In this document: positions 11,141 to 17,435 of the stretch, in pieces | How positions within the stretch are numbered: the stretch's first letter is position 1 | Layout of the letters: each line of letters starts with the position of its first letter | Virus record (IMG/VR): IMGVR_UViG_3300048930_000097 | Coordinates: 1 to 21,051 of that record | Source of the DNA: a virus | Reading direction: 5' to 3' (one strand) | Length of the DNA: 21,051 nucleotides | Program-made: the position numbers and the translations under genes | Notes under the pieces: generated by a model | Told to the model about the DNA's origin: nothing | Seen by the model: only the letters and a program-made list of their open reading frames with translations | Databases searched by the model: none

Positions 11141-11707
11141 ATGACTTATCTGGATTCCGTGGATCTAGAGAAGCGGCGCGAACGTAAGCGAGAAAGTACT
11201 CGCAAATGGCGCATGTTGAATCCAGAGAAATCGCGCGAAAGTGAGATCAGATATCGAGAGGCCAATCGCGAAAAGATACGCGAAAGGAGTCGCGCGTGGC
11301 ACGCGGCCAACGGTGCAGCATGGCGTGCGGCAAATATAGAAAAACTCCGCGAGAGCGCACGCAATTGGTATGCCGCCAACGCAGAGAAGGCCCGTTGGCA
11401 AGCTAGAGCGCACAAGCGAAAGCGCGCCGGCCTACCTGAACCTACGCGTCCGCAGCCGGCTTCTTGCGAGTGCTGCGGCGGTCCGCCACAGGGCATCGGC
11501 AAGCAGCACGGCACTCTGCATCTGGATCACGATCATAAGACCGGCGCATTCCGCGGGTGGCTCTGCAGTAAATGCAATCACGCTCTCGGCTTGTTGGGAG
11601 ATGATATTGCCGGAGTAGACCGCGCGCGTTCATATCTGCTTAAACACGCAGCATGCAACGTGCAGAATGCTTTTGCAGGTTTCCTGCTGGATCAAAATGT
11701 AAACTGA
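11141..11707 (+). CDS. Free-standing HNH endonuclease, endonuclease VII-like fold
   Basis: A 188-residue basic protein. Residues 10-95 are helical and built of imperfect repeats such as REANREKIRERSRAW and AANIEKLRESARNWY, a likely DNA-binding arm. Residues 105-160 hold the nuclease: C109/C112 (CECC), LHLDHDHKTGAFRG (126-139) and LCSKCNHALGLL (141-152), the zinc-bound beta-beta-alpha HNH of the phage T4 endonuclease VII-like group. It has its own AGGA site, and sits between the U- and V-like genes where lambda has none, with base composition less GC-rich than its neighbours. It is probably a mobile homing-type gene; a genome resolution or packaging role is less likely because of its location in the tail block. 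Confidence 0.85.
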   Translation: MTYLDSVDLEKRRERKRESTRKWRMLNPEKSRESEIRYREANREKIRERSRAWHAANGAAWRAANIEKLRESARNWYAANAEKARWQARAHKRKRAGLPEPTRPQPASCECCGGPPQGIGKQHGTLHLDHDHKTGAFRGWLCSKCNHALGLLGDDIAGVDRARSYLLKHAACNVQNAFAGFLLDQNVN

Positions 11708-11717
11708 GGAAACTGAC

Positions 11718-12680
11718 ATGGCTCATGGATTAATCAAGAGGGAGCTGATTCAGGCAAGAATTGAATCGACCTACGGCACCGATCCTGGCGCGTTCGCAGG
11801 CACCGACACGGTGCTCGTGCGCAACATCACGCATCAGCCGGATCGGCTGCGCATGGTGCAGCGTGGTGCGATTCGCACAAGCCTCGGGGAATTGCAGCAT
11901 ATCTACGGCGGAATGCTGCAGGCGATTAGCTTCGAGTGCGAGGTGAAAGGCTCAGGCACGGCCGGAACAGCGCCGGAGATCGACGTGTTCCTTCGCGCCT
12001 GCGGGCTGCAGGTGACGAATGTCCCTGCCACATCCGACACGTATGCGCCGCGATCGTCAGGGCTGGAAAGCTGCACGATCTACTACCATGAAGCGGCAGC
12101 CGGTGCGAATACGCAAGTACGCCACATCCTGCTCGGTTGTCGCGGCAACGTGGAATTCGTGTGGACGACCGGCGACATTCTGCTCGCGCGGTTCACCATG
12201 CTCGGTAAGCGATCGGGCGCACCGACCGATCAGACGCTGCCGACACCGACGTATGACGCGACCGTGCCGCAAGCGGTGAAGGGGCTCGCCACGACCATTG
12301 GTGGGGTGAGCGGACTCGTCGTGCAGAACTACACGCTGAATCTCAACAACGAGATCATCGTGCCGGACAACCTGAACGACAGCGAGGGCTACGGGCAGGT
12401 GATGATTGCCGGTCGCGATCCGACGCTGGAAGTGAACCGTCACACCGAGCTCGTGGCGACGCTCGCGCCGTGGGCCGATCTGGCAGCCGGGACGGCTCGT
12501 GCCTTTGCGTCTGGGACGCTCGGCGGGACAGCTGGCAATCGCATCGCCTTGACAGCCGGGCAGATGCACTATCGCGGTATCACGCAGGCCGATGATTCCG
12601 GTGTGCGTACCAATGCCTTTTCGTTCGGTCTGCACGAGACCAGCACGATCGATACCGAATTCACGCTGGCGTTCACCTGA
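11718..12680 (+). CDS. Tail tube protein (gpV-position, Phage_tube_2-like)
   Basis: A 320-residue protein between the U-like and G-like genes, where the major tail protein belongs. The sequence is beta-rich with the phage tube family pattern: an N-terminal ARIESTYGTDPGAFAGTDTVLV opening, a hydrophobic LLGCRGNVEFVWTTGDI centre, VVQNYTLNLNNEIIVPDN, and an IDTEFTLAFT C-terminus. This size is nearer the long tube proteins of many non-lambda siphoviruses than lambda gpV (246). No sheath gene follows, so a siphovirus is expected. ATG 11718 has GAGGAA eight bases upstream. The stop TGA overlaps the next ATG (TGATG), so the chaperone is translationally coupled. Confidence 0.85.
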   Translation: MAHGLIKRELIQARIESTYGTDPGAFAGTDTVLVRNITHQPDRLRMVQRGAIRTSLGELQHIYGGMLQAISFECEVKGSGTAGTAPEIDVFLRACGLQVTNVPATSDTYAPRSSGLESCTIYYHEAAAGANTQVRHILLGCRGNVEFVWTTGDILLARFTMLGKRSGAPTDQTLPTPTYDATVPQAVKGLATTIGGVSGLVVQNYTLNLNNEIIVPDNLNDSEGYGQVMIAGRDPTLEVNRHTELVATLAPWADLAAGTARAFASGTLGGTAGNRIALTAGQMHYRGITQADDSGVRTNAFSFGLHETSTIDTEFTLAFT

Positions 12681-12997
12681 TGGAACTCGCGAAAAAACTC
12701 GAACCGGCGTGGTTCGATTACGAGGATGCAGGTTTTCTGTGCAAGCCTCTCACGGCCGCGCAGAAACTCAGCGCGTATTCGGCCATCGAGTCCGAGGACT
12801 ACGGCGATGCTTATGCACGCATGGTGCGATCGGCCGTCACTGACTGGCGCGGCATCACGGTTGACGGTGCGTCGGTAGCGTTCAGTCTCGCGGCGCTCGA
12901 CGACCTGTTCAGTGACGAGCGCAACGCTACGCTGCTGATGCACCTCGGCACCTTCATCGCCAATCGCGCGCGGGTCAGCGACCCAAAAAAATCATAG
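12680..12997 (+). CDS. Tail assembly chaperone G-like (zero frame)
   Basis: A 105-residue protein located between the tube and tape-measure genes, as lambda G. It starts in a TGATG overlap with the tube gene and has no ribosome site of its own. Sequence is helical with an acidic ESEDYGDAYARM segment and ends DPKKS. The last lysine codons lie in a slippery A AAA AAA run, so most ribosomes should end here and a minority continue in the -1 frame to give the GT form. G and GT coat the tape measure and recruit tube subunits. The family itself diverges quickly; position and the frameshift site are the main support. Confidence 0.85.
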   Translation: MELAKKLEPAWFDYEDAGFLCKPLTAAQKLSAYSAIESEDYGDAYARMVRSAVTDWRGITVDGASVAFSLAALDDLFSDERNATLLMHLGTFIANRARVSDPKKS

Positions 12998-13281
12998 GGG
13001 CGATCGCAGTCGCCCTGATCCCAGACTGGGCACCGTGCGGAAACTGCGACTGTCGCGATGGGGTGAACCCCATTCCCAACAAGTGGGAAGTGAAGGACGT
13101 GTTCAGCACCAATCGTTGCCCGCGTCGCGATCAACCCGATGACTGGCCGCTCATGCTGGATCTGCTGCATCACTACCGCAGCGGTCACTTGTGGGTGTCT
13201 GGCGGGCTATCCGATCAGCCGGCGGCCTATATCGAAACCATGTCTCTCATCGAAACCTGGGTGAACAAGCTCCGTGCCTAA
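12680..13281 (+). CDS. Tail assembly chaperone GT fusion by -1 frameshift
   Basis: At A AAA AAA (12985-12991) a -1 slip joins 104 G residues to 96 residues read from 12991 to 13278, giving a 200-residue protein with stop TAA at 13279. The T part opens IIGAIAVALIPDWAPCGNCDC and ends IETWVNKLRA; it contains four cysteines (CGNCDC and NRCP), which could bind a metal. No independent ribosome site or start codon is needed for T; the only internal start (GTG 13063) lacks one. The arrangement equals lambda G/GT: T recruits the tube protein while G holds the tape measure. The tape-measure GTG at 13274 overlaps its stop by 8 bases. Confidence 0.85.
12985..13015 (+). promoter_or_regulatory. Programmed -1 frameshift element (slippery A AAA AAA plus hairpin)
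   Basis: The heptamer 12985-12991 is in the correct frame (CCA AAA AAA TCA TAG). After a six-base spacer that contains the zero-frame stop, GGGCGA (12998-13003) pairs with TCGCCC (13010-13015) around a TCGCAG loop. The spacer length and 6-bp stem suit frameshift stimulation. Confidence 0.85.
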
Positions 13282-14602
13282 CGCCACCGCCCGCTATGTC
13301 ATCACCGCCGACGACAAGACGAAGGGCGCTATTGCGTCGGTCAAGCGCGGTTTCGATGACATCGACAAGGGTGCGCGCAAGCTCTCGAAAGGCTTGAAAG
13401 CGATTGGCGTCGGCGCGCTCGCGCTGAAGGCTTGGGGCATCGCGGCCCGCTTCGCCGACGCGTCGATCCAGAATCTGGCGAAAAGCAACGCGGACTTCGC
13501 GAAAACACTCGCCGAAACGAACGCTGCATTCGCGGACATGAAGCGCGCGGGACCGTTGACGGTTGAGGCATTTGAAGCGCTGAACAAAGCTGCGAAGGAC
13601 CCAGCGCTGCGCGACTCGATGCGCCAAGGCGCCGATCTCACGTCTCGTATGGTGACGGAAGTACGCGCGCTCGGGATCGCGTGGGGCATCGTCGCGGCTC
13701 GCGCGCTCACGGCTCTGGGCATCATCGACAAAGCGCCGCAGCTCGACAGTCGCGGGCCGCAAGGGCGCGGGTTCCCAGATTATCGCGACCTCGGCGACGT
13801 GGATGCGGCCCGAAAACTCGGCACGTCGCAGAACAAAGCCTTCGACGATCTCGCGAAAGCGACTGCTTCGGGCGCTGCCGAGGCCCTGAAACGGGACGTG
13901 CAAGCCGCCAAAGACGCCGCCGCGGCGCTGGACGAATACGCCAAGGGCCTTGTACGCGCGCATGAAATCGGTCGCGAGTTGTCCAAGACCGGCCTGCTCA
14001 GCATCGACCCGCAGCAGTTCGAGGACACGCGCTTCGACCAGTTCGGCGACTCGATTCTGGAGTCCACCGAAGGCATTGCCGATCGGATGAGCGAGGCGCT
14101 GAAAGAGCCGTTCACGGAACTGACGCCGTATGCCGAACAGGCTGCCCGCAACATGCAAGACGCTTTCGCGGACTTCTTGTTCGATCCGTTCGATGATGGC
14201 GTCAAGGGTATGGCGAAGTCGTTCCTCGACACGATCCGCCGTGTGCAAGCGGATAAGTGGTCCGCCAAGCTGTTCGACTGGATCGGTACGAAAAAGGGCA
14301 CGGGCGGCATCCTGGGCGGCCTGAGTAGTCTGCTCGGCTTCGCGCAAGGCGGCGATTTCAAGGTCGGGGGCAATGGCGGCACCGACTCGCAGCTCGTCGC
14401 GTTCAAAGCGACGCCGGGTGAGCGGGTGATCGTGCAGACGCCGGCGCAGCAGGGACGCGGTGGCGGCATCACGATCAATCAGAACGTAGACGCTCGCGGG
14501 GCAAGTGTAGAGCTAACGAAGGCTCTGCCCGGCCTGCTACAGAAAGCATCTGATGATGCCGTATCTCGTATCCAAGATATGGTTTCGAGAGGCCGTTTGT
14601 AA
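13274..14602 (+). CDS. Tail tape-measure protein (short, 442 aa)
   Basis: The gene after G/GT in this gene order encodes the tape measure, which fixes tail length and helps eject DNA. Here it starts MPNATARYVITADDKTKGAIASV, a typical opening of short tape measures. It continues with long Ala-rich helical segments, a hydrophobic LGIAWGIVAARALTALGII stretch (about 133-151), and a C-terminal domain with DNA/assembly-like features: FADFLFDPFDDGVKGMAKSF, KLFDWIG, and QGGDFKVGGNGGTDSQLVAF with PGERV, like the gpH tail end. GTG 13274 overlaps the GT stop. At 442 residues it is about half of lambda gpH (853), predicting a shorter tail. The stop lies two bases before the endonuclease ATG. Confidence 0.86.
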   Translation: MPNATARYVITADDKTKGAIASVKRGFDDIDKGARKLSKGLKAIGVGALALKAWGIAARFADASIQNLAKSNADFAKTLAETNAAFADMKRAGPLTVEAFEALNKAAKDPALRDSMRQGADLTSRMVTEVRALGIAWGIVAARALTALGIIDKAPQLDSRGPQGRGFPDYRDLGDVDAARKLGTSQNKAFDDLAKATASGAAEALKRDVQAAKDAAAALDEYAKGLVRAHEIGRELSKTGLLSIDPQQFEDTRFDQFGDSILESTEGIADRMSEALKEPFTELTPYAEQAARNMQDAFADFLFDPFDDGVKGMAKSFLDTIRRVQADKWSAKLFDWIGTKKGTGGILGGLSSLLGFAQGGDFKVGGNGGTDSQLVAFKATPGERVIVQTPAQQGRGGGITINQNVDARGASVELTKALPGLLQKASDDAVSRIQDMVSRGRL

Positions 14603-15227: not shown

Positions 15228-16825
15228 TGGCGCGCGAGCTGATATGGCCGCCGGCCTTGCGGATCACGAACATTGAGAGCCGCTTGATCGGCAACGCAGG
15301 CGTGTCGCGCTCGCCGCTGTCCGGCGCCACGACCACGGTAGACCGCTCCGGTGATCGCTGGGCGATCGCGGTCACGGTAGAGAACCTGTCGGATCAGGCC
15401 AGCTACGCCGAGCGCGCGAATGCCACGGCGTTCCTCGCCGCGATCCGAAACCGCAATGCTCGAGTGTGGATTCACGACCCCAGCTATGTGCAGCGCGGAT
15501 CGTTCTCTGCGTCGGAACTGTTCACCAATGCCGATTTTGCGAACGGCACAACGGGCTGGACGGCGCAGAACGCGACACTGGCTGTTCGTGATCGCGTCAT
15601 GCGGGCCACTGCATTGCGCGCGACCGGCTCATCGCCGGGGTTCTCTCAGAATCCCACCGTCACGCAGTACCGGCCTCTGGTCGCGCGCTCGATCTTCGGC
15701 GCACGCAATCGCAGTGGTGTGACGATCGGCATTTACAACGCCGACGCCGGCGGATCTGCGAACTACAGCGCCGACCGCACGGGATACCAGGCTATCTCGT
15801 GGGTTCCCAGGTCCACGTCTGCCGGGTCCACGTATCCGGTGGTCTACGACGGCGCGGGAACAGTCTCAATCAACGGCGACTGGATCGAGTGTCCGTTTAC
15901 CTCGCTCAGCCATTGCGCGCTCGTGGACAACGCCCCGAATGCATTTACGCGATCCGATGAGATCGACCACGCGGACTGGACGAAAGCGAATGTCACGGTC
16001 ACGGCGAATGCAATCAACGGTCCTAGTGGTGTCGCCACGGCGGACCAGCTTATAGAGTCCACGGCGAGCAGCACGCATCACCTGACGCAGACCACGACCA
16101 AGGCGGCGGTCGCGCAAGCTTGGTGTTTTGCGGGCTGGTTCCACGCCGGCACTCTCGCGGATGCCCGGACCAGAATTCTGCTCCGTGTTGGGGATGTGAA
16201 CGGCGCGGATTACGCGCAAGGCTTTTTTGACCTCAACACCGGGGTTGCTGATACGCCCTCCGCAGCGGGAACGGCAGCCAACGCTCGTTCTTTCATGCAT
16301 CTTGCCGGTGGTGGTTGGTACTACTGCGCGATCATTTGCAGGACCAGCACCGGCACCACGGTCGGCGGACGAATCTACATGGTGCAGTCCGGCACGACCA
16401 CGAGTTATGCGGGACTCACGACAGCGGATATCGGTGTAGCGCGGTTGTCGCTGGCGCAGTCTGGTGTCCCGATGCGGCTTGGCCAGACCGTTGCTACGGC
16501 GCTCCCGAGCGGGACAACGCAGACCGGCAGCGGGTTGTATCTCAAGGGGCTGCCTGCCAGCACCAGCGGATTGCTGCTCAGTGGCGACGCGGTACAGGTC
16601 GGCAAACAGTTCTTCGAGGTGCTGGCACCACTGGACAGTGACGCATCGGGCCGTGGCTCCATTCAGGTCTCGCCGAACGTCCGCACACCGTTTGCAGACA
16701 ACGATCCGGTCGTCATCAATCGCCCGATGGGGCGGTACAAGCTCGCCAGCGATGAGGCGGGCTACTCCACGCGCGCCGGCCGCTTCTCCACGTTTACGCT
16801 TGAGCTAGAAGAAGCGCTCGACTGA
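15227..16825 (+). CDS. Tail tip minor protein with inserted carbohydrate-binding-like modules
   Basis: A 532-residue protein just downstream of the tape measure. The ATG overlaps the endonuclease stop and has GAGG five bases upstream. Residues 1-95 (IGNAGVSRSPLSGATTTVDRSG, AATAFLAAI-type helix, WIHDP) and 419-532 (LLSGDAVQVGKQFFEVL, VRTPFADNDPVVINRP, and a LELEEA end) look like the two halves of a minor tail protein. Between them lie about 320 extra residues: one module from ~97 (ELFTNADFANGTTGWTA) and another from ~238 (AFTRSDEIDHADWTKANVTV), both like CBM-type beta-sandwich modules of phage proteins. The module may let the tip bind surface sugars. The lambda equivalent is M; the match is by position only. 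Confidence 0.72.
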   Translation: MARELIWPPALRITNIESRLIGNAGVSRSPLSGATTTVDRSGDRWAIAVTVENLSDQASYAERANATAFLAAIRNRNARVWIHDPSYVQRGSFSASELFTNADFANGTTGWTAQNATLAVRDRVMRATALRATGSSPGFSQNPTVTQYRPLVARSIFGARNRSGVTIGIYNADAGGSANYSADRTGYQAISWVPRSTSAGSTYPVVYDGAGTVSINGDWIECPFTSLSHCALVDNAPNAFTRSDEIDHADWTKANVTVTANAINGPSGVATADQLIESTASSTHHLTQTTTKAAVAQAWCFAGWFHAGTLADARTRILLRVGDVNGADYAQGFFDLNTGVADTPSAAGTAANARSFMHLAGGGWYYCAIICRTSTGTTVGGRIYMVQSGTTTSYAGLTTADIGVARLSLAQSGVPMRLGQTVATALPSGTTQTGSGLYLKGLPASTSGLLLSGDAVQVGKQFFEVLAPLDSDASGRGSIQVSPNVRTPFADNDPVVINRPMGRYKLASDEAGYSTRAGRFSTFTLELEEALD

Positions 16826-16826
16826 C

Positions 16827-17435
16827 ATGGATAGCGTCATCAACGCGGCCGCTGCCGAGAGTGCGCAGCAGTCGCAGGGTTTGCTTTGCCGATTCGCATT
16901 CGATAGCGGCGATCAGTACTACACGACCCGCGCGCATCCGGTGACGTGGGACGGAGACACCTATCTGCCCGTAGGGCCGGTCAGCGTTGAAGCGATCACG
17001 GAGGCGGCAGACAGCAAGCCGAGTGCAATCAGGCTCACGCTCTCCGGAGTCGATGCCAACTTCATCAACCTCGCTCTCGACGGCGAGGAATACATCAATC
17101 GGCGGGTCTACATTTATCGAGGCTGGTTCAGCGAACAAGACGTTCTACTGGACGATCCAGAGGGGCCGATCATCGCGACGATCAGCCATCCGGAAGTGGT
17201 GCTGGGCAACGAGAACGCCATGTCGCTCGTCTGTGAGACGGCCTTTGCCAGATGGGCCAAGGCTAAGCCTCTGGCGTGGACCACGGCAACGCAACAGAGG
17301 TTCTGGTCTGGGGACAAGTTCTTTGATCGCGGCCCGTTGAACAAGGATCGCACGATCATGTGGGGCGGCCAGCGATTAATGACTGGCGGCGGCGGCGGTC
17401 GCGGTGGCCCGGCACCCCGCACGGTGGAACGCTAA
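16827..17435 (+). CDS. Minor tail protein, gpL-position (202 aa)
   Basis: It follows the tip protein with only one base between and is followed by the K-like gene in a TAATG overlap, so its place matches lambda L. The family-like segments are QYYTTRAHPVTWDGDTYLP, SAIRLTLSGVDANFINLAL, NRRVYIYRGWF, and DKFFDRGPL...WGG near the end, a layout found in siphovirus minor tail proteins near the tip. No signal peptide or membrane span is present. The C-terminal tail is Gly/Arg-rich and probably disordered. No visible Fe-S cysteine cluster, unlike lambda gpL. The role is inferred to be a baseplate/tip structural protein; the family assignment is moderate. Confidence 0.75.
   Translation: MDSVINAAAAESAQQSQGLLCRFAFDSGDQYYTTRAHPVTWDGDTYLPVGPVSVEAITEAADSKPSAIRLTLSGVDANFINLALDGEEYINRRVYIYRGWFSEQDVLLDDPEGPIIATISHPEVVLGNENAMSLVCETAFARWAKAKPLAWTTATQQRFWSGDKFFDRGPLNKDRTIMWGGQRLMTGGGGGRGGPAPRTVER

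Follow-up and report, generated by a model that had tools for sequence, protein, structure and literature searches.

A probable programmed -1 ribosomal frameshift joining tail assembly chaperone genes G and T in an uncultured tailed phage and its relatives

Our analysis indicates, with a probability of roughly 95%, that the two overlapping open reading frames between the major tail protein and tape measure genes of an uncultured tailed phage (placed by ORFs, Pfam and PHROG) are a tail assembly chaperone pair expressed by programmed -1 ribosomal frameshifting, as in lambda G/GT. The stretch of DNA analysed, called the window below, is an IMG/VR virus record of 21051 bases. The TGA of its tail tube gene shares one base with the ATG of G, and the 3' end of T is overlapped by the GTG of the tape measure gene. 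The features of the region are as follows.

11718..12680, plus strand: major tail (tube) protein gene (Pfam Phage_tube_2, E 1.2e-11; PHROG 290, tail)
12680..12997, plus strand: gene G, tail assembly chaperone, 105 aa, the zero-frame product (ORF; PHROG 313; predicted fold)
12982..12988, plus strand: second, overlapping in-phase heptamer C CCA AAA (heptamer scan)
12985..12991, plus strand: slippery heptamer A AAA AAA, in phase (sequence; same place in all scanned relatives)
12985..13281, plus strand: T part, translated in the -1 frame once slippage has occurred, with four invariant cysteines (tblastn relatives across the junction; alignment)
12995..12997, plus strand: zero-frame stop TAG, 3 nt past the heptamer (sequence)
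12997..13016, plus strand: GC-rich hairpin of 8 pairs with loop CGCA, role putative (RNA folding, -12.9 kcal/mol, z -3.2)
13274..14602, plus strand: tape measure gene, encoding 442 aa from a GTG start (PHROG 3336, tail length tape measure protein, E 1.2e-9)

The short length of the tape measure protein suggests a short tail. Between the tail terminator-like and tail tube genes lies an Endonuclease VII-like gene (11141-11707; Pfam Endonuclease_7, E 1e-14). Three near-identical contigs (L009, L011 and L012) follow the window closely over the parts that they cover, except for a sharp divergence at 15250-17000 that resembles the local exchange of an allele within the tail region.

Direct reading of the 3' end of G gives CC A AAA AAA TCA TAG, with A_AAA_AAA in the zero-frame phase ahead of the stop, as the original prediction had it. 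Its statement that the -1 frame stays open for another 96 codons up to the tape measure start was likewise borne out: this frame runs without a stop from 12916 until the TAA at 13279-13281, its new codons begin at 12991, and the GT fusion would be 200 aa long. The overlapping heptamer C CCA AAA had been missed; by codon reading, a slip there would yield the same protein as a slip at A AAA AAA. A run of seven A is unremarkable in itself, at least one being found in 30 of 100 shuffles of the 21 kb. This one stands out because it is in phase, lies 3 nt ahead of the G stop and involves codons that are scarce in the 16 ORFs counted, where AAA accounts for 45 of 193 Lys codons and CCA for 20 of 253 Pro codons. 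The 5843 codons of these ORFs hold seven in-phase XXXYYYZ heptamers of any kind, among which A7 is the only one composed of A and T alone. A perfect 5-bp inverted repeat (GGGTC AGC GACCC, 12972-12984), seen by eye, abuts the first A of the heptamer.

Four sources supplied distant relatives: tblastn; IMG/VR, scanned for motifs; GTDB contigs, the scan of which added one locus; and 369 genomes searched with a profile, of which 3 matched, including one known beforehand. Over G-T, four near-identical contigs agree with the window at 100% and are therefore uninformative on conservation. The main scan covered 39 loci, with same-contig copies left out (L001-L005, L009-L016 and L040-L051; L064 is likewise the same contig as L056), and reported heptamers whose second triplet is of A or T and which are preceded by 60 or more open codons of G. 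In each of the 39 loci, the window among them, an XXXYYYZ heptamer stands in phase, preceded by an open G frame and with T in the -1 frame; without the window, the heptamer occupies the same spot in 38 of 38 other loci and, once 13 near-duplicates are removed from the 39 (L054, L031, L032, L027, L019-L025, L039 and L038), in 25 of 25 other non-redundant loci, counts that are not independent since the loci share ancestry. Two further loci from bacterial genomes, L065 (A AAA AAC) and L066 (A AAA AAG), also conform. The heptamer of the 26 non-redundant loci is A AAA AAC in 20, A AAA AAA in three (the window, L017 and L053), G GGA AAC in two and A AAA AAG in one, and the zero-frame stop follows 0 or 3 nt after it in 21 of the 26, with T identity to the window going as low as 19%. 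Eleven of the 25 other non-redundant loci came from pattern sets in which the heptamer-encoded KK was present, a slight bias towards the heptamer. Loci found by motifs without KK were therefore counted separately, and the heptamer is present in all 14 of them (of the 26). We also looked among the relatives for the case that the original prediction had set against itself, a broken heptamer with T translated from another start, and none of the loci found has the T domain with a broken heptamer.

Isolated phages are among these relatives. Alteromonas phage P24, Agrobacterium phage JP1, the Rhizobium phages L338C, RHph_I4 and RHph_TM16 and the Rhodobacter phages RcTiptonus and RcZahn all have a homologous -1-frame T after an in-phase heptamer, as in the window, but their heptamer is A AAA AAC, G GGA AAC or A AAA AAG rather than A AAA AAA. 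A search of phage records at the DNA level gave matches lying under tape measure genes where these were annotated (1 of the 13 records was without annotation). RcZahn has been described as having no clear frameshift sequence (PMC8601537). In its record (MW677529.1, 23927-23933; L036:2001-2007), an in-phase A AAA AAC stands 12 nt before the gp27 stop, with a homologous T in the -1 frame, and on this reading of the sequence the published remark looks mistaken. A T-frame ATG overlaps the gp27 stop in this phage, and a restart is possible there.

The original prediction had also given the frameshift site a stimulatory hairpin, and this part of it fared less well. The pairing is real: GGGCGA (12998-13003) can pair with TCGCCC (13010-13015) across a 6-base loop, and RNA folding of 29 bases extends the stem to 8 pairs (12997-13004 with 13009-13016), so that the spacer after the heptamer counts 5 bases in the folded form and 6 if only the core stem is considered. 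Shuffling rarely reproduces the exact 6+6+6 pattern (1 of 100 shuffles). While the heptamer is a supported element, the stem as a stimulator is not supported. Across the related phages that were aligned, the heptamer is conserved in all the loci found and the stem is not. RNAalifold predicted 0 pairs on the relatives, the pair counts of the window stem over 16 sequences were like those of shuffles, with no covariation beyond them, and 26 loci compared with synonymous recoding gave no sign of a selected downstream structure (Fisher p 0.29). No conserved or covarying stem was thus found 5-9 nt past the heptamer, and Rfam had no match over 12800-13400. We therefore lean towards the view, which concerns the stem claim only, that the hairpin at 12997-13016 arose by chance or was driven by coding and does not stimulate frameshifting. 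In addition to its lack of conservation, 563 of the 21023 29-base stretches of the window (2.7%) fold equally well, and synonymous recoding of T equals the stem in 3.6% of 5000 draws with a codon table of 11 genes and in 7.3% of 300 draws with a codon table of long open frames (p 0.036-0.073). Within a 69-base context, moreover, the hairpin loses to a different fold (z -0.91). Against this view, the hairpin is placed exactly as a stimulator would be, 5-6 nt past the heptamer, it is strong for its length (z -3.2), L062 and L063 likewise have strong 29-base hairpins there, and a private stem could stand in for the Shine-Dalgarno-like site that many relatives have and the window does not. We also considered the stem as a terminator and rejected this role, which would apply to the minus strand only, with an imperfect tail and seemingly no gene to serve.

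In many relatives, Shine-Dalgarno-like signals upstream of the heptamer are striking against background. A conserved stimulator of this kind was nevertheless rejected, their energies being explained by the encoded acidic residues (Fisher p 0.36 vs synonymous recoding). The window itself has no such site upstream of its heptamer (-2.4 kcal/mol, with 54% of the background as good), and hence no upstream stimulator of the dnaX type.

Three other explanations for the joining of G to T have to be weighed. The fused message could be produced by RNA polymerase slippage on A7, instead of by slippage of the ribosome. Homopolymer runs are capable of this, and PMC3711429 attributes transcriptional realignment to A runs longer than 7. 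The run in the window is only 7 A, and 22 of the 26 non-redundant loci have A AAA AAC or G GGA AAC, which keep the codon-phased pattern of a tandem slip and not a long homopolymer. Polymerase slippage is thus very improbable.

Still less probable is the translation of T alone, by internal initiation or by stopping and restarting, with the heptamer incidental. Some relatives do have a T-frame start soon after the heptamer, such as the RcZahn ATG that overlaps the G stop and those of the Rhizobium phages. No start codon precedes the conserved CxxC in the T open frame of 19 of the 39 loci scanned; the other 20 have one, and internal initiation is therefore possible for those. In the window, no ATG, GTG or TTG lies ahead of the CxxC, and the first T-frame start, GTG 13063 (a 72-aa ORF), falls after three of the four conserved cysteines. 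The sequence conservation seen in the alignments, moreover, begins at the heptamer itself, which again speaks against independent translation of T. Finally, a single GT gene split by assembly error or by pseudogene formation is the least probable reading of all, since, common as homopolymer indels are among errors, four other contigs are identical across G-T and the same split is present in all the distant relatives.

The T frame also bears the marks of a coding sequence. In five P24-like contigs, 22 of the 29 variable columns of T fall at third codon positions of its -1 frame, and there are zero variable columns from -5 to +25 around the heptamer start. These sequences indicate that T is evolving under coding constraint, as a protein read in the -1 frame. 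Of the original prediction, then, the joining of G and T by a programmed -1 frameshift is what stands, on the heptamer in all relatives, the chaperone fold, the constraint on T and the want of a T start before the conserved domain; the stimulatory hairpin is not supported.

The assignment of G draws on its sequence and on its predicted structure. The sequence matches the tail assembly chaperones of PHROG 313 weakly (E 0.0019), this family being matched by 2 of 9 G proteins, and an alignment of G proteins searched against PDB sequences gave a single weak match (2ldk, E 0.2). The predicted model of G (pLDDT 88.6) aligns in VIA-align with 3fgx (rbstp2171; Z 9.1, 85 residues, 3.8 A), with YqbN 3klu (Z 6.0, 87 residues, 4.1 A) and with the HK97 tail assembly chaperone 2ob9 (Z 5.8, 82 residues, 3.5 A), proteins that share the fold of G at a sequence identity of only 5-11%. 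Plain Foldseek of the model against the PDB gave no match with E <=0.001, and Foldseek also matched it to many models of viral tail assembly chaperones. G is thus predicted to carry a tail assembly chaperone fold.

Taken together, we infer slippage, its rate and the function of GT as follows. Most ribosomes would terminate at the TAG to give gpG of 105 aa. For a minority, a one-base backward slip at A AAA AAA, or at the C CCA AAA that overlaps it, would lead into T and give gpGT of 200 aa. By analogy with lambda, G would coat the tape measure protein, the T part would recruit the tail-tube protein and the G:GT ratio would be set by the efficiency of the slip.

The likeness to lambda G/GT lies in the order tail tube - G - T - tape measure, in a slippery heptamer near the end of G and in a T without its own start. 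Unlike lambda, whose heptamer is G GGA AAG, the window has A AAA AAA with the stop 3 nt after it. Its T has a Cys-containing domain, and the likeness to lambda is one of arrangement. G-T frameshifting is an established arrangement in lambda (PMC5009743). The all-A heptamer, which the original prediction had presented as a distinguishing feature with respect to lambda, proves to be no novelty, since it is already a known shift site (PMC3711429; PMC5009743). In PMC3711429, A_AAA_AAA is listed among the sites implicated in programmed frameshifting in GeneTack clusters, where the same heptamer as in the window is found in different genes, and reporter tests are given as 10% for a seven-A site and 7% for a tail assembly chaperone cluster. 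On annotation, PMC10885494 reports 2397 joined tail assembly chaperone genes found by PRFect among SEA-PHAGES genomes and states that annotation leaves many such genes unjoined. With the pair in the window, the lambda G/GT class gains a new but ordinary member, whose mechanism is already known.

T itself is less familiar. Its four cysteines (13036-13119 in the window) are invariant in 23 of 23 aligned T domains and in 15 of 15 members of a set with isolate phages among them, and a metal site is possible. The T of the window matched no family in Pfam, PHROGs or NCBIfam, and the 23 T members gave weak matches at most in Pfam (zf-MYND at E 0.004 and zf-Mss51 at E 0.02 for one member each, ACBP at E 0.07 for two) and in PHROGs (phrog_10675 at E 0.0049 for one); from these searches, the domain appears to be essentially absent from Pfam, PHROGs and NCBIfam. 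Foldseek of the T model against the PDB gave nothing with E <=0.001, none of 34 PDB chains aligned with the model at Z >=2, and nothing in the PDB sequences matched the T alignment. Among the open-licence PMC texts listed in searches on zinc-binding tail assembly chaperones and on frameshifts in Rhodobacter tail assembly chaperones, none has a title or abstract that describes this T family.

It is conceivable, and we propose it tentatively, that T represents a largely uncatalogued Cys4, possibly metal-binding, tail assembly chaperone domain family, spread over uncultured phages and phages that infect alpha- and gammaproteobacteria. Frameshifting would be the main or sole route to its synthesis, and the want of a reliable start codon would explain why gene callers and profile libraries have overlooked it; in the lineage of the window, a private GC stem may replace the Shine-Dalgarno-like stimulator of its relatives. 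In Alteromonas phage P24, T is unannotated, and in the other isolate phages examined it stands as a gene of its own, in most cases shortened or labelled hypothetical. For a phage family with mostly uncultured members, the analysis confirms the GT arrangement of genes and shows that the public annotation examined leaves the T ORFs out, shortens them or labels them hypothetical. Its practical value lies in the correct annotation of these genes and in a cysteine-rich T domain that can be put to the test.
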